Positions 3,956-44,391 of a stretch of DNA of 46,143 nucleotides are shown one piece after another. The notes beneath the pieces were generated by a model. That model saw only the letters and a list, made by a program, of their open reading frames with translations. It did not search any database and was not told the origin of the DNA. The stretch is from an uncultured Acidimicrobiales bacterium (lineage in GTDB: Bacteria > Actinomycetota > Acidimicrobiia > Acidimicrobiales > UBA10347), in assembly GCA_938015575.1 (NCBI GenBank), contig CALLPT010000157.1, forward strand, positions 1-46,143, in the 5' to 3' direction. The position numbers were made by a program, and so were the translations under genes. Each line of letters starts with the position of its first letter. The stretch's first letter is position 1.

Positions 3956-4915
3956 CTAGTAACGCAACGTCACGGTGCGGTGGTGCTCGCCGAACATCGC
4001 GGCGTTCGGGCCGAGAACTGCCTCGGACCACAGTCGGTAGTCGAGTCCCGGCGAGGGCACCTCGACGTTGCGTTGGCGCAGTGCACGACGCAACTCGGCG
4101 CCAGCAAAGACCGTTGCCCAACGCAGTGCATGTTCGTGGGGGGAATCAGCGGCGATCAGTTGCTGGGCGTCGATGGCGGCAGCCAGATCGGCCTGGTACA
4201 CCAGGATGCCCAGGTGCCGAAGCACCCGCGGGAGCATGTAGTCGGGGTACACGGGAAAATCGTCGTAGCCGTGAAAGCCGCCGGCGTCCCACCCGGCGCC
4301 GGCCGCCATGATGGCCGCGGCCAGGTGCGAGAGCTTGTCGAACGGCAACGTCCCTGCCGCGGTGTCCGGCCGGTCCTGATACGCGGGCATCGTGTCAGAC
4401 AATGCGGCCGCGATACGCACACCGTCGCGGCCCATCGCGTCGACGAGGTTGCGAGCCGACCCGTCCCAACGGTCCGTGATCGTTGTGGCGACGCGCCGAA
4501 GCAGGTCGACGCGTTCGGGGATCATCTGCAAGGTCCCCTGTCCAGCGAAGAGCTCCGCTCCTTCGCTGTCGCCGAGGTTCGCGAATCGAGCCAGGTCGAG
4601 CCCATCGTCTTCGAGCGTCTTGGTGAACACGGCGAAGATGCCGGGCGCATCGTCGAGCCACTGCCCGTCGAGTTCGCAGTGCCACATCTGCTCGCCATCA
4701 GGCGGCCACAAGCACGCGAGCACCGAGACCGAAAGCGTCACGTAGTCGAACCACCATGACTCGTCGCGCTCGGGCGGTGTGCCGGGATAGTCGAACGTCG
4801 GCAACGGAAACGTGTCGTCCTTCCACATGTCGGCGACGCGAGCGATTGCAGCATCGTCGACGGCGACGCCCCACGAGGTTGGGGGGCGTTGCTGTTCGAG
4901 ATCTACGAAGTCCAC
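3956..4915 (-). CDS. queuosine salvage protein (DUF2419 / Qng1 family nucleotide N-glycosylase)
   Basis: 319 residues from a GTG at 4915. The frame stays open further upstream, but that part overlaps the divergent SRPBCC gene, and TACGGT sits 6 nt before this GTG. Family landmarks in order: WWFDYVTL followed by LACLWP, a GxGTLQMIPERVDLLRR segment, a DKLSHLAAAIMA helix, then DDFPVYPDYMLPRVLRHLGIL and DYRLW near the C-terminus. Members hydrolyse queuosine 5'-monophosphate to release queuine for tRNA modification. No tgt or other queuosine gene lies in the window. The family call is made by eye from these blocks; activity is inferred. Confidence 0.72.
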   Translation of the reverse strand: MDFVDLEQQRPPTSWGVAVDDAAIARVADMWKDDTFPLPTFDYPGTPPERDESWWFDYVTLSVSVLACLWPPDGEQMWHCELDGQWLDDAPGIFAVFTKTLEDDGLDLARFANLGDSEGAELFAGQGTLQMIPERVDLLRRVATTITDRWDGSARNLVDAMGRDGVRIAAALSDTMPAYQDRPDTAAGTLPFDKLSHLAAAIMAAGAGWDAGGFHGYDDFPVYPDYMLPRVLRHLGILVYQADLAAAIDAQQLIAADSPHEHALRWATVFAGAELRRALRQRNVEVPSPGLDYRLWSEAVLGPNAAMFGEHHRTVTLRY

Positions 4916-4921
4916 GGCCGA

Positions 4922-4927
4922 ACCGTA
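4922..4927 (-). promoter_or_regulatory. -10 box for the queuosine salvage gene
   Basis: TACGGT on the minus strand, 6 nt before the GTG at 4915. It supports that start over longer upstream reading. Confidence 0.45.
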
Positions 4928-4960
4928 CCGGCCCCTCGTAGTCGCGTGGGGCGCCGCGGC

Positions 4961-4966
4961 TAGCGT
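4961..4966 (+). promoter_or_regulatory. -10 box for the SRPBCC gene
   Basis: TAGCGT, 6 nt before the ATG at 4973. Confidence 0.45.
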
Positions 4967-4972
4967 TTGGCC

Positions 4973-5425
4973 ATGATTCGACACCTCGAAGTTTCCCGTG
5001 ACATTGCCGCATCGCCCGAGGCGGTCTACGACGCAATCGCTGATGTGACACGTATGGGGGAGTGGTCTCCGGAATGCCACACATGTGAGTGGGTCGAAGG
5101 CGCAACCGGCCCCGAGGTCGGCGCCCAGTTCATGGGCCACAACGCCAACAACGGTGCGGAGTGGTCGATCGTGAACACGGTTACGGCCGCGGATCGAGGC
5201 AAGCGCTTCGCCTTTGACTGCACGAGCCGTGACTTCCATTTCGCCACGTGGGCCTATGAGTTCGAGGCGACCGACGGCGGATGCCGAGTGACCGAGATTT
5301 GGGACGACCTGCGTCCAGACGAGGTGATCAACCGCCCTTCGATCTCTGGTGTCGAAGACCGAGCCGAGTTCAATCGCCAGTCGATGGCAACCACGCTCGA
5401 ACGCGTGGCGGCCGCCGTCGAGTAG
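4973..5425 (+). CDS. SRPBCC (START/Bet v1-like) family protein
   Basis: 150 residues with the N-terminal strand HLEVSRDIAASPEAVYDAIADVTRMGEWSPE, typical of polyketide-cyclase/dehydrase-like proteins. GxxFxGHNxNNGAEW follows, then a long C-terminal helix (FNRQSMATTLERVAAAVE). The fold makes a hydrophobic ligand cavity. No catalytic residues can be assigned. It resembles the SRPBCC half of the nitroreductase fusion at 10947 (shared ...EEFMGARWD/GAKFIGSNK-like pattern), so the two may bind related ligands. A CMD-like gene starts 2 nt after its stop, indicating one transcript. Confidence 0.8.
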   Translation: MIRHLEVSRDIAASPEAVYDAIADVTRMGEWSPECHTCEWVEGATGPEVGAQFMGHNANNGAEWSIVNTVTAADRGKRFAFDCTSRDFHFATWAYEFEATDGGCRVTEIWDDLRPDEVINRPSISGVEDRAEFNRQSMATTLERVAAAVE

Positions 5426-5427
5426 CC

Positions 5428-6111
5428 GTGCCGCGTACCCGACAGGTCGCGCGAGACGACGCGCATCCTCGAGCCCAACAGCTGTACTCGTTGCTCTTCG
5501 GGTCGCGCGATCCGGTCGCCGAACCCGGTACCGAAACCGGCACGCCCGGCAACTGGTGGACGGTCACGGCGGCAGTCCCTGACCTGTTCGATCACATCGT
5601 CGACGGCTTCGCCTTTTACCGATCGCCGGAGCGGGTTCTCGATCCGCAACTGCGTGAGCTCGGCCAAACCCGCACTGGCTATACGCGCGGCAGCCAGTTC
5701 GTGTTCTCTCAGCACTGCAAGGCCGCCAGGTCGGTCGGGTTGAGCGAGGCGAAGATCGACGCGATCCGCCACTGGAGCGTGAGCGACGTCTACTCGCCGA
5801 TCGAGCGGGCCGTGCTGGCCTATACCGACTGCCTGGTGCTCCAAGGTGGTCGAGTGCCCGACGGTGTCTTCGACGCGCTGCGAGACGAGCTCAGCGAAGA
5901 AGCGATCCTCGAACTGACCTACATCGTCTGCACCTATGACATGCACGCCACCATGACCAAAGCGCTGCGCATGGAGTTCGACGATGTCGACGATCGCATC
6001 GTCGAGGTTCCTGCTCCGCCCTCGACCGAGCAGGGCGCGGGCGTCGACGCGATGGCCGTCGTCGATGGAGCGAGCGTTGATGGAGCGAGCGTTGATGGAG
6101 CGAACGACTGA
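5428..6111 (+). CDS. carboxymuconolactone decarboxylase-like (AhpD-fold) protein
   Basis: 227 residues from a GTG 2 nt after the upstream stop. The AhpD-like core has GSQFVFSQHCKAARSVGLSEAKI (H96, C97), followed by a helix with SPIERAVLAYTDCLV and a C-terminal helix pair. AhpD peroxidase proteins have a CxxC pair; here only one Cys is in place, so a thiol peroxidase role is doubtful, and the CMD type with a conserved His is the better match. The tail carries a short tandem repeat DGASV-DGASV-DGAND. Function is probably a small-molecule decarboxylase or hydrolase, unspecified. Confidence 0.75.
   Translation: MPRTRQVARDDAHPRAQQLYSLLFGSRDPVAEPGTETGTPGNWWTVTAAVPDLFDHIVDGFAFYRSPERVLDPQLRELGQTRTGYTRGSQFVFSQHCKAARSVGLSEAKIDAIRHWSVSDVYSPIERAVLAYTDCLVLQGGRVPDGVFDALRDELSEEAILELTYIVCTYDMHATMTKALRMEFDDVDDRIVEVPAPPSTEQGAGVDAMAVVDGASVDGASVDGAND
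6064..6108 (+). repeat. 15-bp coding tandem repeat
   Basis: Two exact copies of GATGGAGCGAGCGTT (6064-6078, 6079-6093) and a third diverged copy (6094-6108) end the CMD-like gene. Each unit encodes DGASV or DGAND, so copy-number change would keep frame. Confidence 0.9.
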
Positions 6112-8662: not shown

Positions 8663-9475
8663 CTAGGTATCGGCTCGGCTTCGGTACAACTCGGGGAACA
8701 GCGGATGAATCATGGGTGCGCCGGTCGCCAGCTCATCGTCGAGGCCGTCGAAGGGCGGCGATGTTGTCCACGGGCGCGGGGCATGCACCATGTCGTCGCC
8801 CAAGAAGCGCACGGAAAGAACCCGGCGCCGGCCGGTGCCGGTGACGCCCGGCGCGCCATGCACCGTCAAGAAGTTGAAGAACACCGCATCGCCCGGCTCC
8901 AACGCCCAGGCGAGTTTTGGCCAGCGGTCCGGTTCCGCGTCGAAGTCGGGCAACTCGCGCAGGCTTCCCTCGGGAAACCACCGGGCCTGTTCGTCGAGGA
9001 ACGTACGCGGCAGATACCAGGGGCCGGTGTGCGTGCCCGCGATCAGCTGAAGCGAGGTGTCGAGTGGCACGGGGTCGACGGGCAGCCACATGCTCGCATT
9101 CAGCGAGCCTTCGACGTTGTAGTACGGCTGATCCTGATGCCAAGGCGTGCGTTGTCGGGTGCCGGGCTCCTTGGTCAGCATGTGATCGTGGAAGAGCCGG
9201 ATCGTCGACGAGCCCGTGAGGTGCGCCGCAATCTGCGCGGCCGGGGACTCGCGAACGAACCGTTCCATGGCCGGGATTCGGTGCCAGTTGCAGAAATCTT
9301 CGATGAACGGGGCGTCGTCGTCGGCGCTTGCTCGCTTCGCGAGGGGTGACAGGTCGGCGAGGTTCGCGTCGATCGCCTGCTCAGCCAATCTCATGTCGTC
9401 GGGCCCGAATGCTTGGCGGACACACACCGCGCCGTCGCGTTTCCAATCGCCTTCGATGATCACGATGTCCAGCAT
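8663..9475 (-). CDS. phytanoyl-CoA dioxygenase (PhyH) family Fe(II)/2OG oxygenase
   Basis: 270 residues with the double-stranded beta-helix of PhyH proteins. The metal triad is readable: His and Asp in TPWHQDQPYYN and the distal His in LTVHGAPG, followed by arginines (RRRVLSVRFLG) that would bind the 2-oxoglutarate carboxylate. Such enzymes hydroxylate lipids or small metabolites. The RLFHDHMLTKEPG segment ahead of WHQD is usual for the family. It converges on an SDR (8 bp between stops) and diverges from the heavy-metal protein gene. Substrate unknown. Confidence 0.85.
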   Translation of the reverse strand: MLDIVIIEGDWKRDGAVCVRQAFGPDDMRLAEQAIDANLADLSPLAKRASADDDAPFIEDFCNWHRIPAMERFVRESPAAQIAAHLTGSSTIRLFHDHMLTKEPGTRQRTPWHQDQPYYNVEGSLNASMWLPVDPVPLDTSLQLIAGTHTGPWYLPRTFLDEQARWFPEGSLRELPDFDAEPDRWPKLAWALEPGDAVFFNFLTVHGAPGVTGTGRRRVLSVRFLGDDMVHAPRPWTTSPPFDGLDDELATGAPMIHPLFPELYRSRADT

Positions 9476-9501: not shown

Positions 9502-9702
9502 ATGGGTGCCCTCCAACACGTCATCAAGGTCGAAGGCATGAGCTGTGAGCATTGCGTCGCGGCCGTCACTGCCGAAGTCGAAGCGGTCGCCGGTGTCGAG
9601 ACCGTCGTCGTAGATCTCGAAGCCGCGACGGTCACCGTCGACGGCGGCGACATCGCCACGATCCATGCGGCGATTGACGAAGCCGGTTACGACGTGGCCT
9701 AG
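9502..9702 (+). CDS. heavy-metal-associated (CopZ-like) domain protein
   Basis: 66 residues, a single ferredoxin-like HMA domain. The metal loop GMSCEHC near residues 13-19 gives the CxxC pair that carries Cu(I) or Zn(II), and the domain closes with a GYDV-type strand. It would act as a cytoplasmic metallochaperone. No CopA-type P-ATPase or copper repressor lies nearby, so its partner is elsewhere. Its TAG stop overlaps the convergent MFS stop in a shared CTAG (9699-9702). Confidence 0.88.
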   Translation: MGALQHVIKVEGMSCEHCVAAVTAEVEAVAGVETVVVDLEAATVTVDGGDIATIHAAIDEAGYDVA

Positions 9703-10859
9703 CGGGCTCGCTTCGGGCCGAGCGGTTCGGACGATCCGCGTCCTGGACCTAGCCCGATCGCGACCAACACGAGCGGCACCAGGCCGAGGGCGGCCGCGAG
9801 TAGGAACGCGGCGTTGACGTGGCGTTCGATCACCGGCACGAGCAGAAGCGGTCCGAGCGCGTGTCCGAGGAACCGGAACGAGAGCAAGAAGCTCAGCGCG
9901 CCACCTCGGTTCTCGGGCATGAGGCTGGCGCCGAGCGCCTGGAAGACAATCACGGTCAGCACCGTGAGCGCGCTGACGACCGCCCAGATCAATGCGAGCG
10001 ACACGGCACCGGTCGCAAAACTCAGGCAGGCGACGGACACGCTCGCCAACGCAATCGCCGTCAGCCCGACCCGTCTGGGTCCGTGGCGGTCCAGGACCCG
10101 ACCCCAGGCGGGCCCCAACAGCAGTGACGTCATGCTGCCGGCGAACAAGACGATCCCGGCCACGGTGCCGGAAAGTTCCAGAACGTCTCTCGCGGCGAGC
10201 CCCACCAGGACCCCAATACCGATCGGTCCGGTCGCCAAAAACAGAAAGGCCACACCGAGCAGCAACATCTGTTTGGTCAGCAGCGGGCGCAGCCGGGGCA
10301 TCGCGTCGGCGTCGGTGCGGGGTTCGCCAGGGGGAGGTGCGAGTGCGAGCAGGCCGGCGATGACGGCGGTGCCCACGAACGCCAGCTTCCAGTCCGTGTC
10401 GGCGGCGATGCCACCGAGTACCGGCCCAAGTCCTCCGCCGAGCGCCTGGAAACTCGAGTAGATCCCGACCTCGCGCCCGAGACGGTCGGCAGGTACCAAC
10501 TCGGCCAGGCCGGCAACGAGCAGTGGGGTGATGAACGCATTGCCGATCCCGGCCAGAGCGCGGGCGGCGATGAACAAGGTCAGGTTCGGGGCGAGAGCGG
10601 CCAACAGGCTTGCTGCCGCATACAGCAGGTAGGTGGCCCGCACGGTCCGCCGCCGCCCGAGCCGTTCACCAATCGTGCCGGAGAAAAGCAAGAAGACCGC
10701 GAACGGAATCAGATAGAGGCTGTACGCGAGCGAAACCTGGCTGGTGGTTGCGTCGAACTCGGTTCGCAACTCGGGGTACATCGGGATGATGACAATCGTG
10801 CCGAACGGCCCCATGAAGCCGCCGACATACAGCGGCAAGCGCTCGATGAATCCACGCAC
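9699..10859 (-). CDS. MFS transporter (drug/metabolite exporter-like)
   Basis: About 386 residues and roughly 12 membrane helices. The MFS signature between helices 2 and 3 reads GTIGERLGRRRTV, and a second copy (GRVLDRHGPRRVG) follows the central loop. Start: the frame is open to 10991, but that overlaps the divergent nitroreductase gene. The GTG at 10859 just before the first hydrophobic segment is preferred, with low certainty. The protein is probably a proton-driven exporter of the DHA1 type. The substrate is not evident from neighbours. Confidence 0.78.
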   Translation of the reverse strand: MRGFIERLPLYVGGFMGPFGTIVIIPMYPELRTEFDATTSQVSLAYSLYLIPFAVFLLFSGTIGERLGRRRTVRATYLLYAAASLLAALAPNLTLFIAARALAGIGNAFITPLLVAGLAELVPADRLGREVGIYSSFQALGGGLGPVLGGIAADTDWKLAFVGTAVIAGLLALAPPPGEPRTDADAMPRLRPLLTKQMLLLGVAFLFLATGPIGIGVLVGLAARDVLELSGTVAGIVLFAGSMTSLLLGPAWGRVLDRHGPRRVGLTAIALASVSVACLSFATGAVSLALIWAVVSALTVLTVIVFQALGASLMPENRGGALSFLLSFRFLGHALGPLLLVPVIERHVNAAFLLAAALGLVPLVLVAIGLGPGRGSSEPLGPKRAR

Positions 10860-10934
10860 GCTCGTCGTCGACCTCCCCGACGGAGCGTAGGCGGTCGCAG
10901 GTGAGGACTTGGAAGTCGGCGTTAACCGTTCACC

Positions 10935-10940
10935 TAGGAT
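10935..10940 (+). promoter_or_regulatory. -10 box for the nitroreductase-SRPBCC fusion
   Basis: TAGGAT, 6 nt before the ATG at 10947. Confidence 0.45.
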
Positions 10941-10946
10941 CGCTCC

Positions 10947-12143
10947 ATGGGGATGAACATCGATGAGATCGACGTTGCGTCGATCGACCACGTGCTGACG
11001 ACAACGAGGGCGGTGCGTCGTCGCCTCGACCTAGAGCGGCCGGTCGACAACGAGCTCCTGTACGACTGTATCGACATCGCCGAACAGGCGCCTTCGGGCG
11101 GAAACCAGGGGAGTCGACGTTGGGTGATCGTCCGTGACCCACGGGTCAAGGAGCAGATGGCCGAGCTGTACATGGAGACCGGCGGCCAGTTCATGATCGG
11201 GGCGCGAGACAAGATCGCGGGCACCGGTCATCCCCAAGAGCGGGTCATGGAGTCGGCCGCCTATCTCGCCGAGCACCTGGCCGAGGTCCCCGCGATCATC
11301 GTGCCCACGATCATCGGCGTGCACGACGGCAGCGGCAGGCCCGGCCTGTTTGACTCGGTCGTGCAGTCCGTCTGGAGCCTCTGCGTCGCGCTACGTGCCC
11401 GCGGCCTCGGCACTGCGTGGACGACCGCGATTCTCGGCAAGCGCGAGGAGCTTCGCGACGTGCTCGGTGTTCCCAAAGGCAACACGCAAATCGCGATGAT
11501 CCCAGTGGCGTGGTTCACGGGCGACGACTTCCGCCGCGCCCCGCGGTATCCGGCCCGCGAGATCACGGGCATCGACCGTTACGGCCATCAGTGGGAGCGC
11601 GGCCCGAGCGACCCGCCCTCGCTCGCCGATGGGCCCATGACGACGGTCGAGGTCGACATCAAGGCGCCGACCTCGGTCGTGTGGGACCGGGTGAGCGACA
11701 TCAATCTCAGTGAGCCGTACAGCGAAGAGTTCATGGGCGCCCGATGGGACGACGGCGTCGACGGCCCGGCCCTCGGAGCCAAGTTCATCGGGTCGAACAA
11801 GCACGACGCCATTGGCGAATGGGACGTCCCGTGTTTCGTCGATCGCTATGTCGAAGGTAAAGAGTTCGGCTGGTGCACCAGTGACCCGGACAATCCCGGC
11901 GCCCGGTGGTGGTTCGACATCGCCTCGATCGCGGGAGCAACGCGGGTGCGTTTTTCGGTCGCGCTCGGACCCGGGCCTTCGGGGATCAGCGCCGCCATCG
12001 AAGCGATGCCCGACAAGGAGCCTCGGATCCTGTTCCGTCGCATCGGCGAGCACCGGGCAAACATGCAGCGGGTGATCGATGGCTTGGCTGCCGAATTGGC
12101 AAAGCCGGCCGAGGATAAGCCAAACGTCATCTTCGGCGATTGA
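10947..12143 (+). CDS. nitroreductase-SRPBCC fusion protein
   Basis: 398 residues in two parts. Residues about 12-210 are an FMN-dependent nitroreductase: TTTRAVRRRLD near the start, QAPSGGNQGSRRWVIVRD, and RARGLGTAWTT, ending with IPVAWFTGDDFRRAPR. Residues about 230-385 are an SRPBCC domain beginning MTTVEVDIKAPTSVVWDRVSDI with a closing helix (RIGEHRANMQRVIDGLAAEL). A ligand-binding cavity fused to a flavin reductase suggests that the second domain delivers or senses the hydrophobic substrate of the first. A separate SRPBCC relative lies at 4973. There is no frameshift between the halves, so the fusion looks real. Confidence 0.85.
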   Translation: MGMNIDEIDVASIDHVLTTTRAVRRRLDLERPVDNELLYDCIDIAEQAPSGGNQGSRRWVIVRDPRVKEQMAELYMETGGQFMIGARDKIAGTGHPQERVMESAAYLAEHLAEVPAIIVPTIIGVHDGSGRPGLFDSVVQSVWSLCVALRARGLGTAWTTAILGKREELRDVLGVPKGNTQIAMIPVAWFTGDDFRRAPRYPAREITGIDRYGHQWERGPSDPPSLADGPMTTVEVDIKAPTSVVWDRVSDINLSEPYSEEFMGARWDDGVDGPALGAKFIGSNKHDAIGEWDVPCFVDRYVEGKEFGWCTSDPDNPGARWWFDIASIAGATRVRFSVALGPGPSGISAAIEAMPDKEPRILFRRIGEHRANMQRVIDGLAAELAKPAEDKPNVIFGD

Positions 12144-12163: not shown

Positions 12164-13297
12164 TCAGTCAGGCGTCGCGAACTCTCGTCGCAGGGCGTCG
12201 CTGTGTTCGCCGACCGAGGGCGCGGTCCGGGTCGGCGTTTGTCGATCCGAGCGAACCGGGTGAGCGGGAAGCCGGAACTCGATGCCACTCGAACTGATGC
12301 CCTGGCGCGTGCGCAGCGCCGCATGCTCGGCGAGTTCGTCGAGCGAGTTGATGGCTCCCCAGGCAATGGCGGCATCGTCGAGGCGGGCGCGAAAGGTAGC
12401 GGCGTCGAGCCCGCCGACGATCGCTGACATGTCGGGTTCCAACTCGGATCGGTTTGCGACCCGCTGTTCGTTCGACGTGTACCGCGGGTCGGTAGCCATT
12501 GGTTCAGCGTGCAGCACATCGCGGCACAGTCGCACCCATTCGCGTTCATTCTGAATCGAGATCAGGGTGAGGGATCCGTCGCTGGTGGCGTAGGCCCCGT
12601 AGGGTGCGATCGTGGGGTGGCGGAGCCCGACTCGCTTGGGGGCCATGCCCGCGGCGTGCTGCAGGAACGGCACCGTCATCCACTCGGCAGCGACGTCGAA
12701 GAGCGACACGCCGAGCGCCGCGCCCTGGCCGGTCACCGATCGCCCCACCAAGGCTTCGAGCACGGCGGCATAGGCCGTCACGCCGGTGCCGACATCGCAG
12801 ATCGAGACGCCGATACGGCCGAGTTCATCGGGCGAGCCGGACACAGCGATGAGCCCGCTCTCGGCCTGGACCAACAGATCGTACGCCCGCTTCTTGGCCA
12901 CGGCCGGCGAGTCGCCGTAGCCCGAGATGTCCACGGTGATCAGTCGGTCGTTGGCTTGGCGCAAGGCCGAGGCTCCGAAGCCGAGACGGTCGAGGGCGCC
13001 CGGCGCCAGGTTCTGGACGAACACGTCGGCGGCCGCGATCATGCGGTGCAGCAACTCGGCATCCCCAGAGTCCTTGATGTCGAGCACGATCGACTCTTTG
13101 CCCAGATTCGCCCAGCCGAAGTAGGAGCTGTCGCCTCCGGCGGCGCTGTCGTAGCCGCGTGCGAAATCGCCCGAGGCACGCTCGATCTTGATGACCCGTG
13201 CGCCCGCGTCGACCAGACGAGCCGTGCAGACGGGCGCCGCAACCGCCTGCTCGACCGAGACCACGGTGATGCCATCGAGCGGTAGCCGTTCGCTCAT
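12164..13297 (-). CDS. CaiB/BaiF family (class III) CoA transferase
   Basis: 377 residues from the ATG at 13297, which overlaps the crotonase stop (ATGA). The N-terminus LDGITVVSVEQAVAAPVCTARLVDAGARVIKIER and the GDFARGYD segment are classic for class III CoA transferases. The catalytic aspartate is probably in SICDVGTG. They move CoA between acyl-CoA donors and carboxylic acid acceptors. Coupling to a crotonase-fold gene recalls the caiB/caiD arrangement of carnitine metabolism, but formyl-CoA, succinyl-CoA or other acceptors are equally possible. Confidence 0.88.
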   Translation of the reverse strand: MSERLPLDGITVVSVEQAVAAPVCTARLVDAGARVIKIERASGDFARGYDSAAGGDSSYFGWANLGKESIVLDIKDSGDAELLHRMIAAADVFVQNLAPGALDRLGFGASALRQANDRLITVDISGYGDSPAVAKKRAYDLLVQAESGLIAVSGSPDELGRIGVSICDVGTGVTAYAAVLEALVGRSVTGQGAALGVSLFDVAAEWMTVPFLQHAAGMAPKRVGLRHPTIAPYGAYATSDGSLTLISIQNEREWVRLCRDVLHAEPMATDPRYTSNEQRVANRSELEPDMSAIVGGLDAATFRARLDDAAIAWGAINSLDELAEHAALRTRQGISSSGIEFRLPAHPVRSDRQTPTRTAPSVGEHSDALRREFATPD

Positions 13298-14172
13298 GGT
13301 TGATCGGTTCCGCGGGGCCGCTGCGAGTAGTCCTGCCATGGTCCATCGCGCTCGGCAACGACAGGTCGCAGACCATGCTCGGCGATCTGTTCCTCCCAGC
13401 GATAGGCCTCTTCGGTGTGACGGGTGACGCCGTCAAAGAAGGTGCCGAGCATCTGGCTGGTTCGCAGACCCATGTTCTCGAACGCCTGGTTGATGAGCAT
13501 CTTGTTGAGCGCAAGCTGGTTCGCCGGGATCGTCGCCATACGCCGTGCTTCGGCCTCGATTGCCTCGCCGATGTCCTCGGGATCGTGCACATAGGAGACC
13601 AGTCCGATCCGGTGCGCGGTGGCGGCGTCGATCGCTCGCCCCGTCAGCAGGAACTGTTTGGCGTGTTCGAGCCCCAATCGGTAGACCCACAGCATGGTGG
13701 TTGGTGTGCCGTAGATGCGGCTGGGGGCGTAGCCGATGTGGGCGTCGCTGGCCATGAAGAGCAGGTCGCAGCAGAGCACGAGGTCGGTTGCTCCGCCGAC
13801 GGCCCAGCCCGTGACCTCGCCGAGCACAGGTTTGGGGCACTCCCAAATCTTCATGAACCGACGAACGTTGTTGCCCATGAACTGGTAGTCGCGCACCGGG
13901 TCCCACGCTCCTTCACGTGGCTTTGGTCCGCGAGCTCCGTACGGGGTTGACCACAACGGTGCGTCGGCGCCGGGGCTCAGGTCGTAGCCGGCCGTAAGGG
14001 TCCCGTTGGCGCCCCGGAGCACGATCGCTGCGACGTCGGGTGACTTGGTCGCTGCGTCGATGCCATCGGCAACACCCTGGATCACGTCGTCGTTCAGGGT
14101 GTTGCGCTTCTCGGGGCGGTTGAGCGTGATGACGGCGATCCCGTCACGTTCCTCGTAGAGAACAGAGTCCAT
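13294..14172 (-). CDS. enoyl-CoA hydratase/isomerase (crotonase) family protein
   Basis: 292 residues. The two oxyanion-hole strands are clear: LRGANGTLTAGYDLS and GWAVGGATDLVL. The positions that hold the two catalytic glutamates in hydratases appear changed: the usual PEI.LG is APSRIYG here, and the AxE of the next helix is AKQFLLTG. Water addition by the textbook route is therefore unlikely; isomerase, thioesterase, dehalogenase or decarboxylase chemistry is possible. An insert of about 25 residues (PLWSTPYGARGPKPREGAWD) follows the first oxyanion strand. It is first in a two-gene unit with the CoA transferase. Confidence 0.85.
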   Translation of the reverse strand: MDSVLYEERDGIAVITLNRPEKRNTLNDDVIQGVADGIDAATKSPDVAAIVLRGANGTLTAGYDLSPGADAPLWSTPYGARGPKPREGAWDPVRDYQFMGNNVRRFMKIWECPKPVLGEVTGWAVGGATDLVLCCDLLFMASDAHIGYAPSRIYGTPTTMLWVYRLGLEHAKQFLLTGRAIDAATAHRIGLVSYVHDPEDIGEAIEAEARRMATIPANQLALNKMLINQAFENMGLRTSQMLGTFFDGVTRHTEEAYRWEEQIAEHGLRPVVAERDGPWQDYSQRPRGTDQP

Positions 14173-18165: not shown

Positions 18166-18984
18166 TCACGTTGCGCTGTACACCACGGGGCATTGTTCGC
18201 TGTCGAGCAGGTCGCCGGCGACCTTGCCGGGGACATGGACCGGAGTGCTCGTGCCGACGCGGGGGTCGTAGCGCACATCGTCGCCGCAATAGCGAACGGT
18301 GTAGCCGCGGCGGCGACGATTCGCCGTTGCATTGCCCGCGGCGAAGTGCAGGGTCATCGCGCTGAAGACATAGACATCGCCCGGCTCGAGATCCCAGCTC
18401 ACGATGTCGTAGGCGTCGCGATCGGCCTCGATGTCCGGGATCGTCTCATAGGCGGGATTGCGCTCGTACGCGCTGGCGCCGTTGTTCGGCCCGAACGACT
18501 CGGGCTGGAACCAGCGATCCCACTCGTGTGATCCACGCACGAACTCGAGGCGGCCGTTCTCGGCCGTCGTCGGGTCGAGGGCGACCCAGATCGAGATCAC
18601 GTCGCGTCCACTCACCGGCCAATACGGCTGGTCGTTGTGCCATCGGGTCGGATGATTCGCGCCGGCTTCCTTGACGAACAACTGGTCGTACAACAGGTTC
18701 AGATGCGAGGCGTCGACGAAGCGGCGTGCGATGGCAACCGGTGGACCGTCGAGGCAAAAGGCAGCGAAGTCGGGGTCGTTCTGCCAGACCCGCAAGTTGC
18801 CGTGGAACCGGCCGCCTTCGACGTCGTAGCTGTGGTCGAACGGTCCCGGCTCGGCGATGTCGCGCTCAATGGCCGCCGCCAACCGCTCCTGCCATTCCGA
18901 CGAGACCGCACCTCGAACCACCGTGGCGCCATCGCGCTGGTACTCGTCGACATCGGCGTCAGTGATGTGTGGCCCTTCGCTCAC
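18166..18984 (-). CDS. phytanoyl-CoA dioxygenase (PhyH) family Fe(II)/2OG oxygenase
   Basis: 272 residues from a GTG at 18984. The iron triad is His/Asp in TRWHNDQPYWPVSG and a distal His in MTLHFAAGNA, with arginines after it in RRRGYTVRYCGDD for 2-oxoglutarate. It shares layout with the PhyH protein at 8663 (LYDQLFVKEAGANHPTRWHND against the LFHDHML...WHQD block) but differs in length of the C-terminal part. Only 7 bp separate it from the DUF4129 gene, so it may be the first gene of the MoxR operon, an unusual pairing. Substrate unknown. Confidence 0.85.
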   Translation of the reverse strand: MSEGPHITDADVDEYQRDGATVVRGAVSSEWQERLAAAIERDIAEPGPFDHSYDVEGGRFHGNLRVWQNDPDFAAFCLDGPPVAIARRFVDASHLNLLYDQLFVKEAGANHPTRWHNDQPYWPVSGRDVISIWVALDPTTAENGRLEFVRGSHEWDRWFQPESFGPNNGASAYERNPAYETIPDIEADRDAYDIVSWDLEPGDVYVFSAMTLHFAAGNATANRRRRGYTVRYCGDDVRYDPRVGTSTPVHVPGKVAGDLLDSEQCPVVYSAT

Positions 18985-24443: not shown

Positions 24444-25352
24444 CTACAGCTGGGCGGTCAGCACGGCCCGGGTACGAGCGATCTCGTCGGGGTTGGCGCC
24501 CATTGGCACCGCGGTGAAATCGGTCGCGCCCGATTGCGAGATCTCGCCCAGACGTTCCGTGACTTCGGCCTCGGAGCCAACGAGTGAAAGCTCGCCGAGC
24601 CCATGGAGCCCCTCGATGTCGAGCATCGCGCGATAGCTCGGCAGCTCGGCATAGATCGACAGGATCTGGGCGATGAAGTCGCGCGCCGGCTGGGGATCAT
24701 CGGTCACCCACACCGGGATCGAGCACACGATCGATGGCTGCGACCGGTCTGCGGCTTCGGCTGCGTCGTTGAGTACCGGAGCGATGTGTTCCTTGATCGT
24801 CTTCGGACCCACGCACCACAAGATCGTGCCGTCGGTCCGTCGACCAGCCAGCTTGAGCATCTGCTCGCCAAGCGCCGCGACCATGACCTTGGGTCGTTCG
24901 CCCTCAAAGTGCGGAATCTCGCTTTCGAGGCTCCAGAAGTGGCCGTCGTGCGAGGCGGCGCCGTCGTCGATCAAGGGCTGCAGAATTGACAAGAAGTCGA
25001 TCATCTGGCGAACTGGCTTCTCCCATGTCATCTTCCACCGATCGACGACCGCGGGTTCATGGGACAGGCCAATGCCAAGAATCAGCCGGCCGCCGATGGC
25101 GGCCTGGGTCGTGAGCGCCTGGCCGGCCAGCACGTACGGGTGCACGGTCCAGGTCGGAATGACGGCAGTGCCGAGCTCCATCGTCGATCCGGTGTTGCCG
25201 TGTGCGGCCATCACCGTGAGCGCATCGACCCCGCCCGTTTGCGCCAGCCACCACGAGGCGAAGCCGTCGGCCTCGGCCGCCGCGATGTCGCTGGTGATCG
25301 CTCCCAGATTCGGGTTCGCGAGTAGTCCAGAGCCGTTGATTCCAATACGCAT
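24444..25352 (-). CDS. LLM class (luciferase-like) F420-dependent oxidoreductase
   Basis: 302 residues forming a luciferase-like TIM barrel: MRIGINGSG first strand, a LGTAVIPTWTVHPYVLAGQALTTQ-type segment near residue 60-85, GRLILGIGLSHEP, and PKVMVAALGEQMLKLAGRRTDG. The TxAIxGGRLxLGIGxSH pattern is that of actinobacterial TIGR03564-like F420 enzymes rather than FMN bacterial luciferases. Cofactor choice is inferred from this. Substrate unknown. It has its own TAGGCT box and a downstream hairpin, so it is probably monocistronic. Confidence 0.83.
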   Translation of the reverse strand: MRIGINGSGLLANPNLGAITSDIAAAEADGFASWWLAQTGGVDALTVMAAHGNTGSTMELGTAVIPTWTVHPYVLAGQALTTQAAIGGRLILGIGLSHEPAVVDRWKMTWEKPVRQMIDFLSILQPLIDDGAASHDGHFWSLESEIPHFEGERPKVMVAALGEQMLKLAGRRTDGTILWCVGPKTIKEHIAPVLNDAAEAADRSQPSIVCSIPVWVTDDPQPARDFIAQILSIYAELPSYRAMLDIEGLHGLGELSLVGSEAEVTERLGEISQSGATDFTAVPMGANPDEIARTRAVLTAQL

Positions 25353-37157: not shown

Positions 37158-37928
37158 TCAACTCAGCACTCCGATTTCTTCCAAGAGGTCCACGATTGCC
37201 ACGGCGGCCGACTCGTCGGTGCCGAGGATCTCGGTGTTGCTCTCCTGTTCCGGCGGACGGTGCAACGTGACGAGACCTTGGCCACCGGCAGCGGCATCGA
37301 TCTCGGCAGTGTTCATCTCGGCCTTCTTCGAGGCGAGGCGTCCCTTCATCGTCGGGTACCGAGGCAGGTTGATGCCCTCGAGAATCCCAAGCACCGCGGG
37401 CGTTGGCACCTCGTACACCTCGAACCCGCCGTCGATGGCACGGTTCGCCGTGACGGAACCGTCACCGGGCACGACGCCCTTGATGCCGTTGACGATCGGG
37501 CGACCAAGCTTGTGCGCGACCCGCACCCCGACCTGGAAGCCGCCGCTGTCCGCAGACTCGTTGCCCATGAACACGAGGTCGAACGGCACACCGTTCGCTT
37601 CCTCGGCCTGCTGGATCGCCTCGGTCAGCGCCGTGGCCGTGCGCTGGGGATCCCAGGCACTGCCGTCGGTTGGCACGAGGATGATCTTGTGGGCGCCGAC
37701 GCTTGCTGCGTAACGCAGCTGCTCTTCGGCTTCGACCGGGCCGAGCGTGAGCACGGTGACTTCGCCACCGTCGCGTTCGCTGATCTGGACGGCTTCTTCG
37801 AGCGCGCACTCTTCGTGCGGGCTGGTCGTGAAGCCGAGGTGGGCGGCGTCGACGGCCTGCCCGTCCTCGGTCACGTTGATCTTGGCTCCCGGTGCCGGGA
37901 CCCGTTTCACACAAACAAGAATTTTCAT
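37158..37928 (-). CDS. etfB: electron transfer flavoprotein, beta subunit (C-terminal part of the fusion, own start possible)
   Basis: 256 residues if translation begins at the internal ATG 37928. MKILVCVKRVPAPGAKINVTEDG is a textbook EtfB start; DLVFMGNESADSGGFQVG and the signature-like VPTPAVLGILEGINLPRYPTMKGRL follow. A GAAAG lies about 8 nt before this ATG and could serve as a ribosome site, so free EtfB may be made as well as the fusion. It must dimerise with EtfA, encoded next. The reading frame is continuous with the upstream dehydrogenase without a stop. Confidence 0.85.
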   Translation of the reverse strand: MKILVCVKRVPAPGAKINVTEDGQAVDAAHLGFTTSPHEECALEEAVQISERDGGEVTVLTLGPVEAEEQLRYAASVGAHKIILVPTDGSAWDPQRTATALTEAIQQAEEANGVPFDLVFMGNESADSGGFQVGVRVAHKLGRPIVNGIKGVVPGDGSVTANRAIDGGFEVYEVPTPAVLGILEGINLPRYPTMKGRLASKKAEMNTAEIDAAAGGQGLVTLHRPPEQESNTEILGTDESAAVAIVDLLEEIGVLS

Positions 37929-40547
37929 AGTTGATCTTTCGTTCGCTGGGACCGCAGAGCAATCGCCACAACGCAGCGTTGGCGGAGCTTGCGGAGCAAA
38001 GGCGTACTCCCCCTTGAGGCGGGTGTCTTCGGGGTCGAAGGCCGAGCCGGTCGTGGCGACGATCGTCGCCGGGAACAGCTCGTTCATGTACATGACCTTG
38101 AACGTGTTACCGATCTCGGCCATCTCGACGGGCAGGTAGCCCAGGCACAGGTACTTGCCGTAGCTCGGGCCGTTGCCGGCCGTCGTAACGACGCTCACGC
38201 GGCCGTGGCTATAGGTGATGCGCTCACCGTCATCGGTGAGGATCGGCGCGTTGCCACCCTGGATGAAGCGCTTGCGGCCCTGGCTGTCGTGGAGGTCCTC
38301 GATCGCCAGGGTGCACATGATTGCGGCGGGGCCGGCCTCGCGTGCGGCCAGGTAGGCCTCTTTGCCGATGAAGTCCGCAGCCTTGACCTTGGGGCGAGCC
38401 AGGCCAGCCTCGACCGGGTTGTACTCGGACTCGAGCTCGGCGCCCATCAGGCGGTAGCCCTTCTCGACGCGACCGCCGACGGCGTAGACGCCGGCACCGG
38501 TCGGACGACAACCGTGATCGGCACCTGCAGCAGCGATTGCATCCCAAACGGCTGGAGCATCGGCCCACGGGATGTAGATCTCCCAGCCCGTGTCACCGAC
38601 GTAGCTGATCCGGAAGATGTCCGTGCTCACGTCGCCACCTGCGGTGGCGATCATCACCGACCGTACGGAGCCGTACGGCGAACCTTCGTGGCTGAGGTCG
38701 GCATCGGTGATCTGACCGAGGATGGCCGGGGCGTTGGGGCCCCACAGGCCGATGGTCACGTAGTCCTCGGTGCGGTTGGTGAAGGTCACCGAACCGTCGC
38801 GGGGCATGTACTTCTTGACCCACGCCTCGTCGCGACCGCCGTCGAAGGCACCGGTGACGACCCGGATGTGATCGTCGCCGAGGCGCAGCATCGTCAGGTC
38901 GGAGTGGAAGCCACCATCGGGGGTCAGCCACGGGGTGTAGGTGCTGGTGCCGACCGGCTTGTCGACCTTGTTGACCGACAGGTACTCGGCGAATTCGACC
39001 GCGCCCGGACCGGTCAGATCAAAGATCTGGAAGGCGGTCAGGTCGATCATGCCGGCGTTCTCACGCAGGTTGAGGTGCTCGGCGTCGATGATCGGGCTCC
39101 ACCAACGGTTGTCCCACTCGACCTCGCGCTCGGCAATGCCGTAGCGCTCTACGAGATCGGCGTTGCTCGCGTACCAGTGCGGACGCTCCCACACGCGGGC
39201 GGTGAAGTACTCGGCGCCGAGGGCGTCGGTCTGTGCCTTGAGGCTGGACTCCTTGAGGCCGCGGCGCGATTCCCACTGCTCGCTCGGGTGGACGATGCCG
39301 TAGGTCTTGATGAAGTGCTCGTCGGCGCGGGCCCAGATGTGCTCGTCGCTCTTCTCGTCGTCGTAGAAGCGGCTGATGTCCGAAGCGTGCGGGTCGATGA
39401 CACGGGGGTAGCCGTAGGTCATCCACTCGGCGACGACCTGGGCCATGCCCGGGCCTTCCTTGACCCAGACGGCGGCGGCCGACCACAGGTTGCGGACGTC
39501 GGGCAGCTCGCCCAAGCACGGCATGGCATCGGGGGTGAGCGACAGCAGACCGTTGATGGCGTACTTGATCTCGGCGTCGCCGAGCATGTCCATCAGCTCG
39601 ATGGCGGTTTCCATCTGCGGATCGAAGTCGTCTTGGGTGAACGGCATCTCGGTCGGGGAGAGGGCGGCCTCTTCGTTCGACGGGATCTCGTCGGGGTGGT
39701 GCAGGATCGCACGGTGGCCGTACGAGCCGACCTCCATCGAGCCGGCCGACTGGCGCTCGTAGCAGAAGGTGTCCATGTCGCGAACGATCGGGTAGCCGAT
39801 TTCGTTGTTGGTCTCGACGAGCACGTCCATCGGGCCGACGTCGGCCATCTGGTGCACGGCGGGGACGAGCGGGATGTAGGTGTCGGCCATGTTGGCGATG
39901 CGGTTCGACCACACGCCGCAGGCGATGACGACGTACTCGGTCTCGATCGTGCCCTTGTCGGTGACGACGGCCTTGATCTGGCTCATGCCCGGGACGGGGT
40001 CGTCTTCGGTGATGAGGTCGAGGACCTCGGTGTTGGCAAAGGTCTGCAGGCCGGCCTTTTCGGCGGCTTCCTTGCGCATGACCGTGCCGGTCTCGAGCGA
40101 GTCGACGACGGAAACGGTCGGGCAATAGAAGCCGCCCATGATGACGTCTTCGTTGATGAAGGGAACGAGTTCCTTGACCTCGGCTGGGGTCAGCATCTTG
40201 GCTTCGACGCCCCACGCCATGGCCGAGGTCATGCGACGCTCGAGCTCGTTCATGCGTTCCTGGGTACGGGCAACTTCGATGCCACCGGAGTCGACCGACA
40301 TGTTCAGGTCGCGGTACTGGTTGGCGCTCTGCACACCGAGCAGGGCCATTTCCTTGTTGTGGTCAACCGGGAAGATGAAGTTCGACGCGTGGCCGGTCGA
40401 ACCACCGGGGTTGGGCAACGGGCCCTTGTCGAGGAGGACGATGTCCTCCCAGCCCAATCGAGCCAGGTGGCCGACGAGGCAGTTGCCGACGATGCCGGCG
40501 CCGATGACGACGACCTTGGCCGACGTTGGGAACGCTGTATCACTCAT
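37158..40547 (-). CDS. dimethylglycine/sarcosine dehydrogenase-like flavoprotein fused in frame to ETF beta
   Basis: One uninterrupted frame of 1129 residues from the ATG at 40547. Residues 1-380: FAD-binding DAO domain (VVVIGAGIVGNCLVG; GGSTGHASNF with H53 where DMGDH-type enzymes attach FAD covalently). Residues about 440-850: GcvT-like tetrahydrofolate domain (PTGAGVYAVGGRVEKGYRLMG, then FDPEDTRLKG at its natural end). About 27 linker residues follow, then complete EtfB from residue 874. Such enzymes demethylate N-methylglycines, give the methyl group to folate and electrons to ETF, so donor and acceptor are joined. The linker has mixed third-position bases and resembles an intergenic repeat, so stop loss or a C5-run error (38009-38013) is possible. 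Confidence 0.7.
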   Translation of the reverse strand: MSDTAFPTSAKVVVIGAGIVGNCLVGHLARLGWEDIVLLDKGPLPNPGGSTGHASNFIFPVDHNKEMALLGVQSANQYRDLNMSVDSGGIEVARTQERMNELERRMTSAMAWGVEAKMLTPAEVKELVPFINEDVIMGGFYCPTVSVVDSLETGTVMRKEAAEKAGLQTFANTEVLDLITEDDPVPGMSQIKAVVTDKGTIETEYVVIACGVWSNRIANMADTYIPLVPAVHQMADVGPMDVLVETNNEIGYPIVRDMDTFCYERQSAGSMEVGSYGHRAILHHPDEIPSNEEAALSPTEMPFTQDDFDPQMETAIELMDMLGDAEIKYAINGLLSLTPDAMPCLGELPDVRNLWSAAAVWVKEGPGMAQVVAEWMTYGYPRVIDPHASDISRFYDDEKSDEHIWARADEHFIKTYGIVHPSEQWESRRGLKESSLKAQTDALGAEYFTARVWERPHWYASNADLVERYGIAEREVEWDNRWWSPIIDAEHLNLRENAGMIDLTAFQIFDLTGPGAVEFAEYLSVNKVDKPVGTSTYTPWLTPDGGFHSDLTMLRLGDDHIRVVTGAFDGGRDEAWVKKYMPRDGSVTFTNRTEDYVTIGLWGPNAPAILGQITDADLSHEGSPYGSVRSVMIATAGGDVSTDIFRISYVGDTGWEIYIPWADAPAVWDAIAAAGADHGCRPTGAGVYAVGGRVEKGYRLMGAELESEYNPVEAGLARPKVKAADFIGKEAYLAAREAGPAAIMCTLAIEDLHDSQGRKRFIQGGNAPILTDDGERITYSHGRVSVVTTAGNGPSYGKYLCLGYLPVEMAEIGNTFKVMYMNELFPATIVATTGSAFDPEDTRLKGEYAFAPQAPPTLRCGDCSAVPANERSTMKILVCVKRVPAPGAKINVTEDGQAVDAAHLGFTTSPHEECALEEAVQISERDGGEVTVLTLGPVEAEEQLRYAASVGAHKIILVPTDGSAWDPQRTATALTEAIQQAEEANGVPFDLVFMGNESADSGGFQVGVRVAHKLGRPIVNGIKGVVPGDGSVTANRAIDGGFEVYEVPTPAVLGILEGINLPRYPTMKGRLASKKAEMNTAEIDAAAGGQGLVTLHRPPEQESNTEILGTDESAAVAIVDLLEEIGVLS
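37946..38001 (-). repeat. 56-bp repeat, copy B, forming the fusion linker
   Basis: Minus-strand sequence from CTTTGCTCCGCAAGCTCCGC to GCTCTGCGGTCCCAG matches intergenic copy A (35935-35990). Here it is read through as part of the linker between dehydrogenase and EtfB. Confidence 0.6.
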
Positions 40548-40608
40548 GCGTGAAGCTCCAGTGTGAAATCCGGTGAGGGTGAAGTTCCGGGTTGATGTTG
40601 TGATCAAC

Positions 40609-40633
40609 GAGTGATATATCACTCATGTATCAC
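40609..40633. promoter_or_regulatory. operator candidate for the GntR regulator
   Basis: GAGTGATATATCACTC (40609-40624) is a perfect 16-bp palindrome between the divergent regulator and fusion genes. A further TATCAC half-site at 40628-40633 is spaced 11 bp, one helical turn, from the first. FCD-type GntR proteins bind such AT-rich inverted repeats, usually next to their own gene. Confidence 0.65.
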
Positions 40634-43533: not shown

Positions 43534-44391
43534 ATGCATGCCCTTGATGCTCTCGAGGCGATCGTCGATCTCGATACCTATCCGATCCATCGTCTCGACT
43601 CTTCGGTGCGCAGCGACCTGGTCGCCGAGACTCGCCGCCAGATGGATGCCCTCGGGTGCTGTCGCCTGAGCGACTTCGTTCGGCCCGAAGCCATTGCGCA
43701 GATGTTGGCAGAAGCCAAAGATCTCCACGGCCAGGCCTTTTGGGCCCAACAGACCCACAACCCCTACGCATCGCCGGGCGATCCGGGCCTGCCCGACTCG
43801 CATCCGCGCAATGTCATGCAGCACCGCATGAGCGGCTTCATCAACTCCGACATCCTGCCGGCGACCTCGTTGCTCAACCAGATCTACGACAGCAACGTGA
43901 TGACCCATTTCGTCTGGGATTCGCTCGGAACGGACAAGCCGATCTACCAGTGGGCCGACCCACTCGGACGCAACCCGTATGGCGTCATGGAGACCGACCA
44001 CTACTTCCCCTGGCACTTCGACGGCAACGAGTTCACCGTCTCGATCCTCGTGCAAAAGGCTGAGCAGGGCGGCGTGTTCGAGTACGTGCCCGACATCCGC
44101 CAGCCCAACGATGAGAACTACGAGCGGGTGCAGTACATCCTCGAGGGTGGCCGCGACGGCGTGCACGAACTCGACCTGGTACCGGGCGACCTCCAGCTGT
44201 TCAAGGGCCGCTTCTCGATGCACCGGGTGACCCGCATCGCCGGACCGACGACCCGCTACATCGCGTTGCCGACCTACGTCTATGACCCGTGGCGGATGAA
44301 CCGGCCTCACCACTCCGAGCAGTACTACGGACGAGCGACCGATGCGCATCACGCACGTGCCGCGGCCATGGTCGACGGCCTGGTCGACTGA
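43534..44391 (+). CDS. ArpA/HalD-like Fe(II)/2-oxoglutarate oxygenase
   Basis: 285 residues. The metal triad is H161-F-D163 in FPWHFDGNEFTVSILVQ and the distal H230 in KGRFSMHRVT, with R241 for 2-oxoglutarate. The block EQGGVFEYVPDIRQPNDENYERV followed by DLVPGDLQLFKGR matches the family annotated ArpA or HalD/BesD-like. The halogenases of that family replace the Asp with Gly or Ala. Here the Asp is present, so hydroxylation rather than chlorination is expected. It leads an operon with a beta-hydroxyacid dehydrogenase and an aldolase under a TetR regulator. Substrate unknown; a free amino or small organic acid is likely. Confidence 0.78.
   Translation: MHALDALEAIVDLDTYPIHRLDSSVRSDLVAETRRQMDALGCCRLSDFVRPEAIAQMLAEAKDLHGQAFWAQQTHNPYASPGDPGLPDSHPRNVMQHRMSGFINSDILPATSLLNQIYDSNVMTHFVWDSLGTDKPIYQWADPLGRNPYGVMETDHYFPWHFDGNEFTVSILVQKAEQGGVFEYVPDIRQPNDENYERVQYILEGGRDGVHELDLVPGDLQLFKGRFSMHRVTRIAGPTTRYIALPTYVYDPWRMNRPHHSEQYYGRATDAHHARAAAMVDGLVD

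Follow-up and report, generated by a model that had tools for sequence, protein, structure and literature searches.

The gene at positions 10947-12143 (+) of the window, by which we mean the whole 46,143-nucleotide stretch of an uncultured Acidimicrobiales bacterium analysed here, raises the question of why a nitroreductase (NTR) is joined to a ligand-binding domain, and of whether the two parts belong together. The original prediction, made from the letters of this stretch, was that an NTR and a START/Bet v 1-like domain share one 398-residue frame. This was borne out by an open frame of 398 codons with zero stops and a third-position GC of 0.83, matching that of the coding neighbours, by Pfam and fold matches, and by full-length conservation in relatives. 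The two-domain reading of the 398-aa protein is therefore secure. From its N-terminus the protein comprises an NTR domain (residues 21-189; 11007-11513, +), within which lies a segment specific to fused proteins (residues 126-140; 11322-11366, +), a linker region of near-constant length (residues 203-232; 11553-11642, +) and an SRPBCC (START/Bet v 1-like) domain (residues 233-384, with a start at about 226; 11643-12098, +). A second fused paralogue, 48% identical, is encoded on another contig of the same genome.

The N-terminal domain matches PF00881 (Nitroreductase) over residues 21-189 with an E-value of 4.3e-14 and a score of 53.5 bits against a cut-off of 23.5, and belongs to that family. 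It falls well short of the BluB equivalog TIGR02476 (48.8 bits, cut-off 150) and of the equivalog-domain model for the C-terminal domain of FbiB, TIGR03553 (27.9 bits, cut-off 249.55), and is a member of neither. Residues 1-212 are nevertheless folded like iodotyrosine deiodinase (IYD, 4ttb; Z 17.5, rmsd 3.0, 176 residues aligned), BluB (2isj; Z 17.1, rmsd 4.0, 199 aligned) and the C-terminal domain of FbiB, whose structure contains F420 (4xoq; Z 15.5, rmsd 4.0, 184 aligned). The fusion protein differs from all three in its added SRPBCC domain and in fusion-specific residues at 43-57, 92 and 126-140. In the nitroreductase family (PF00881) FMN sits at the dimer interface, and in iodotyrosine deiodinase the residues of a substrate lid bind halotyrosine. 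The residues R21, R24, P49, G51, N53, G153, G155 and R200, which we take to be FMN-site motif residues, are conserved and are common to fused proteins and single-domain NTRs (103 versus 35 sequences), and we infer that the NTR domain binds FMN.

The C-terminal domain scores 25.5 bits against PF10604 (Polyketide_cyc2; residues 233-344, E 1.8e-5), just below the cut-off of 27.4. The SRPBCC assignment holds despite this score, because two relatives of the domain exceed the same cut-off (45.1 and 59.1 bits), the domain predicted alone has a mean pLDDT of 94.3, and the model matches the folds of Cgl2373, TcmN ARO/CYC, Bet v 1, the abscisic-acid (ABA) receptors and MSMEG_5634. A helix-grip fold, together with homologues above the PF10604 cut-off, places the domain in the SRPBCC superfamily. 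The closest solved structure by sequence is Cgl2373 from Corynebacterium (2m47; profile E 2.2e-15), which is also the best match of one stand-alone relative; it differs from the fusion in being a stand-alone protein and is titled uncharacterized. MSMEG_5634 (Rv0910; 7wa9) resembles the SRPBCC domain in fold (Z 15.0, rmsd 3.2, 143 residues aligned), differing in that it stands alone and is 13% identical to the domain over the aligned part. An excerpt of PMC9014085 describes MSMEG_5634 as an SRPBCC protein whose hydrophobic pocket binds acyl-AcpM, and we use it as a working analogy for an SRPBCC protein that carries substrate away from enzymes. It is plausible, from the fold and from the gene partners described below, that the SRPBCC domain of the fusion holds a hydrophobic substrate.

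Confinement of the fusion to a single genome would have counted against the prediction, and a search for this domain architecture showed otherwise, recovering the same order in samples of the genus, class and phylum, at full length in the first two. The fusion is complete in all six genomes of the genus. In the class sample, where up to four candidates per genome were scored, 29 of 395 genomes match with an E-value of 1e-60 or lower, and each match covers both domains in the order seen in the window. Four of 396 genomes of a phylum sample, which may include members of the class, match at E 1e-55, all with this order. A scan of GTDB gave 236 relatives, the best 80 of which all have NTR and SRPBCC adjacent on one strand, one fused locus (L117) being truncated by the end of its contig. 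The records of these best 80 are all titled as metagenome-assembled genomes, mostly as Acidimicrobiia, Acidimicrobiales, Acidimicrobiaceae, Ilumatobacter or Actinomycetota/Actinomycetes. Phage records gave zero matches at E 1e-8, and none of 14 plasmid records covers 80% of the query. A fused gene followed by a luciferase-like (LLM) gene is also present in a genome titled Chloroflexota (L128), which possibly reflects a misbinned contig or a transfer.

The domains appear to have been joined a single time, within one actinobacterial group. An NTR tree of 88 domains places the 44 fused ones in one clade (SH-aLRT 98, branch length 0.70) with zero single-domain NTRs inside it, which argues for a single fusion; the window's own row was removed from this tree as a duplicate, and close genus relatives were included. 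The fused members of a tree of 111 SRPBCC domains also fall into one clade (bootstrap 88, SH-aLRT 95), which contains in addition four stand-alone domains, namely L219, L221 with L232, and L234, the last with an internal stop. Because these four sit inside the clade, an AU test rejected the 47 fused rows as an exclusive group (p 2e-7). The fewest changes between the fused and stand-alone states on this tree are four, which we read as one gain of the fused state and loss of the NTR domain on three occasions, with L219, L221, L232 and L234 as the probable products of loss. By eye, the stand-alone genes L167 (the gene of L219) and L169 (the gene of L221) start with stretches like the linker of the fusion. 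The fused SRPBCC clade lies within an unresolved group that holds 22 other stand-alone domains, 14 of which adjoin an LLM gene and eight of which do not.

We also considered a neighbouring pair of NTR and SRPBCC genes (L169/L221 and L232) as the ancestor of the fusion, and rejected it: the SRPBCC domains of these pairs lie inside the fused clade, and their NTRs group with a second NTR found 3' of the fusion in sister genera. This second, single-domain NTR gene lies directly 3' of the fusion in L036 and L038-L042 (family f13), and in L221 and L232 (f13) an SRPBCC gene lacks the fused NTR domain yet retains this NTR neighbour.

The joint between the domains hardly varies in length. Counted from P202 to E235, it measures 34 residues in 92 of 103 distinct fused proteins and 35 in the other 11, a constancy equal to that of the NTR core; in the same proteins the SRPBCC domain ranges in its first half from 62 to 72 residues. 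Such a near-constant span favours a fixed geometry of the two domains over a floppy tether. A model of the whole protein, built by AlphaFold2 with 36 fused homologues, has a mean pLDDT of 86.6 and a pTM of 0.72. The NTR domain carries marks of the fusion as well: 15 near-invariant positions set the fused proteins (at least 95% of 103) apart from single-domain NTRs (at most 30% of 35, nine of 44 rows having been omitted as too distant). D43, E46, G52, S56 and R57 lie in and before the loop 49-58; H126, S129, G130, P132, L134, F135, D136, V138 and Q140 lie at the start of the helix 134-151; and G92 is the lone position outside the stretches 43-57 and 126-140. The contrast is sharpest at position 140, which is Q in 103 of 103 fused proteins and P in 35 of 35 single-domain ones. 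These stretches are presumably near the flavin in the nitroreductase fold, and the surroundings of the NTR active site were therefore probably altered on the fusion-bearing branch. The expectation that the two domains belong together is upheld in so far as they occur widely in one order, with an apparent single origin, a constant linker and fusion-specific residues; the accompanying tie to a stand-alone SRPBCC gene and a CMD-like gene in the window was not supported, as described below.

A candidate for a functional partner came from the genes around fused and stand-alone SRPBCC relatives. Among the best 80 of the 236 GTDB relatives, LLM is the commonest neighbour family within 4 kb, and the other families around these 80 loci look like lineage synteny. 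There are 20 LLM matches above 100 bits near the fused genes, 14 of which lie at most 100 bp downstream on the same strand; ten of these 14 belong to one LLM clade and four to another. No LLM gene follows at that distance in the other 66 of the best 80 fused loci, some of whose contigs end early. Stand-alone SRPBCC genes within the class adjoin an LLM gene in nine of 43 loci (five on the same strand, four divergent) and lack one in 34, these loci being not a random sample but 45 hand-picked short-frame SRPBCC matches less two (L233 and L259) that were dropped as stand-alones because both begin at a contig edge. Outside the class, an LLM gene lies directly beside SRPBCC in five of 13 genomes and is absent in eight, in a sample biased towards such pairs by its query, an LLM-partnered SRPBCC from Streptomyces. 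Five of six plasmid SRPBCC records, including Streptomyces plasmids, have a directly adjoining LLM gene; the other-class genomes and the plasmid records are not independent, since both stem from Streptomyces-like queries or matches. The two genes overlap by 1 bp in Streptomyces sp. NBC_01136, near acyl-CoA dehydrogenases and an AMP-binding protein, and in L167/L219 SRPBCC and LLM have been kept without NTR. An LLM gene 0.8 kb away on the opposite strand (L281) was excluded from the adjacency count.

By chance, LLM adjacency would be expected in roughly 0.13 of the 43, 0.04 of the 13 and 0.24 of the 80 loci, given six strong LLM genes of this kind per genome and an assumed total of about 4,000 genes, and ignoring shared ancestry; since related loci share history, the figures make the pairing look stronger than it is. 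The SRPBCC-LLM pairing nevertheless spans separate LLM clades and several SRPBCC branches, and a few LLM-free stand-alone loci have other neighbours in common among close relatives. Each domain of the fusion is of a known kind, and what is new here is the recurrent pairing of stand-alone SRPBCC relatives with LLM genes, both in the order to which the window's bacterium belongs and on Streptomyces plasmids. Within titles and abstract openings, a scope outside which most subscription journals fall, we recognised no description of an NTR-SRPBCC fusion or of an SRPBCC-LLM pairing.

The partner LLMs look F420-type, judging from their sequences. Six LLMs beside stand-alone SRPBCC relatives have TIGR03559 (F420_Rv3520c) as their best NCBIfam match, at 282-330 bits and thus below its cut-off of 335, and one partner compared with the PDB is closest to the F420-dependent enzyme Mer (E 7e-28), with an FMN alkanesulfonate monooxygenase at E 7e-8. 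The window genome encodes CofD (304.6 bits, above the cut-off); CofH was not found in its 80%-complete assembly. In an LLM tree the adjacent partners fall into clades apart from the four members that the window genome has above the TIGR03559 cut-off, and the more distant neighbours in L056 and L281 group with those four. Two of the partner-type clades do include an LLM of the window genome (L300 and L299, respectively), each on another contig; the surrounding stretches covered here gave no SRPBCC match, and the fusion locus of the window is itself without an LLM. As to function, an excerpt of PMC1995591 places a KstR motif in the Rv3520c/Rv3521 region of M. tuberculosis, KstR being a repressor that controls a lipid-degradation regulon, and an excerpt of PMC9044951 has Rv3520c as a non-BVMO negative control. 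The window also contains an LLM gene of its own at 24444-25352 (-), which exceeds the cut-off of TIGR03564 (281.1 versus 234.25 bits) and so belongs to another F420 LLM subfamily than the SRPBCC partners.

We propose, with a probability of about one half, that the fusion encodes a bifunctional flavoprotein whose SRPBCC pocket brings a hydrophobic, probably CoA-linked substrate to the NTR flavin and is shared with LLM. The N-terminal domain would be an FMN-dependent oxidoreductase of the nitroreductase fold, and the C-terminal SRPBCC domain a substrate-holding pocket, tethered at near-constant spacing, that would offer its substrate, perhaps a lipid-like acid, to the FMN of the NTR to which it is fused. 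The same pocket module may serve, or may once have served, the F420-type LLM encoded next door in other lineages, and a single ligand would then pass through successive redox steps catalysed by NTR and LLM. Delivery by the SRPBCC domain is suggested by its fold, the gene partners, the linker and the fusion-specific NTR residues; we infer ligand binding, joint action of NTR and LLM on one ligand, and the class of that ligand. Against this proposal stand the location of the window genome's LLM relatives on other contigs, the 66 of the best 80 fusions without a following LLM, the 34 of 43 class and eight of 13 other-class stand-alone loci that adjoin none, the window protein's score below the Pfam SRPBCC cut-off and the failure to find CofH. 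More tentatively, and with the odds against it, this SRPBCC subfamily could be an exchangeable carrier module that delivers one hydrophobic CoA-linked substrate to an NTR in cis and to an LLM in trans, forming a flavin/deazaflavin relay without an ACP-like carrier. If true, flavin and F420 chemistry would here draw on a carrier domain that is not ACP. To our knowledge, natural substrates are not known for most nitroreductase-fold and Rv3520c-type LLM enzymes, and the substrates of both become directly approachable through this fusion of an NTR with a ligand-binding domain that has LLM-paired relatives.

The position of LLM directly 3' of the fusion in 14 of the best 80 loci could also mean that the NTR is a flavin (or F420) reductase feeding reduced cofactor to the LLM, with the SRPBCC domain docking both enzymes or carrying the LLM substrate. 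Flavin reductases that serve luciferases include some proteins of the nitroreductase fold, the NTR domain has a Vibrio harveyi NADPH:FMN oxidoreductase (1bkj) as one of its fold matches, and the F420-bound FbiB C-terminal domain is a top fold match. We nevertheless consider this reading unlikely, as the one LLM compared resembles F420-dependent Mer far above the FMN enzyme, SRPBCC and LLM persist without NTR in L167/L219, and most fusions have no directly following LLM.

It appears less probable again that the SRPBCC domain is itself catalytic, acting as a cyclase, dehydratase or isomerase on the NTR product in a two-step bifunctional enzyme. The closest solved structures include TcmN ARO/CYC, and each of the polar residues E235, D237, E261, N284, R333 and R365 is kept in 98% or more of 103 fused proteins. 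An excerpt of PMC9014085 gives Tyr-35, Arg-69 and Arg-82 as the catalytic residues of TcmN-type aromatase/cyclases; the sequence match to TcmN is weak, however (E 0.02, for a stand-alone relative), leaving these residues without reliable placement, and the recurrent neighbour is LLM, with no polyketide synthase noticed by eye. Least probable of all is that the SRPBCC domain serves as an appendage for stability, dimerisation or regulation, without a shared ligand: two relatives also score just above the cut-off of AHSA1, and we know of no ligand for the subfamily, but residues such as W246, W267, N284, W309 and W321 are each kept in 98% or more of the 103 fused proteins and the module recurs next to redox enzymes.

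The immediate neighbours agree weakly with the preferred reading, in which the SRPBCC pocket would present a CoA-linked compound to the NTR flavin. Upstream and divergent lies an MFS transporter gene (9699-10991, -), whose GTG start overlaps the start of the fusion and may be called too far upstream. Downstream, a convergent CoA-transferase family III gene (12164-13339, -) is followed by an enoyl-CoA hydratase/isomerase gene (13294-14172, -), all three having been assigned by Pfam. The MFS transporter and the enoyl-CoA hydratase are kept near the fusion in three of the four genus relatives examined (L049, L050 and L123) and were not found in L053, nor were any of the other tested window genes near the fusion there; among the genus relatives the CoA-transferase is found in L123 only. 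Retention of these neighbours fits, weakly, a CoA-linked compound.

The original prediction had also pointed to a stand-alone SRPBCC gene beside a CMD-like gene, given as 6 kb away, as a hint of a shared ligand. Both exist, at about 5-5.5 kb upstream (4967-5425, and within an open reading frame at 5281-6111), and the stand-alone protein is, from its sequence, a distant relative of the SRPBCC domain of the fusion, 30% identical over about 100 residues. Neither gene was found by tblastn (E 1e-15, 60% coverage) in 36 fused-gene loci (L049-L083 and L123), many of which are short on one side, the genus relatives L050 and L053 holding 10 kb upstream. With this level of identity, and with the linkage found in none of these 36 loci, we dropped the idea of a ligand shared with this pair. 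The LLM gene is better evidence for a shared ligand than are the stand-alone SRPBCC and CMD genes.

A frame on the strand opposite to the stand-alone SRPBCC gene (3956-5239, -) matches a queuosine-salvage family in Pfam from residue 166 onwards; its 5' part overlaps the SRPBCC gene, and its true start probably lies further downstream than the one called. Elsewhere in the window there are two phytanoyl-CoA dioxygenase (PhyH) genes (8663-9475, - and 18166-18984, -) and a match to HalD (Halogenase D, PF23169) at 43534-44391 (+), with 44.7 bits against a cut-off of 26. Finally, a frame of 1154 aa at 37158-40622 (-) resembles dimethylglycine/sarcosine dehydrogenases (DAO, FAO_M, GCV_T and GCV_T_C) and has a C-terminal electron-transfer flavoprotein (ETF) part at residues 931-1109, so that this dehydrogenase seems to be joined to its own electron acceptor.
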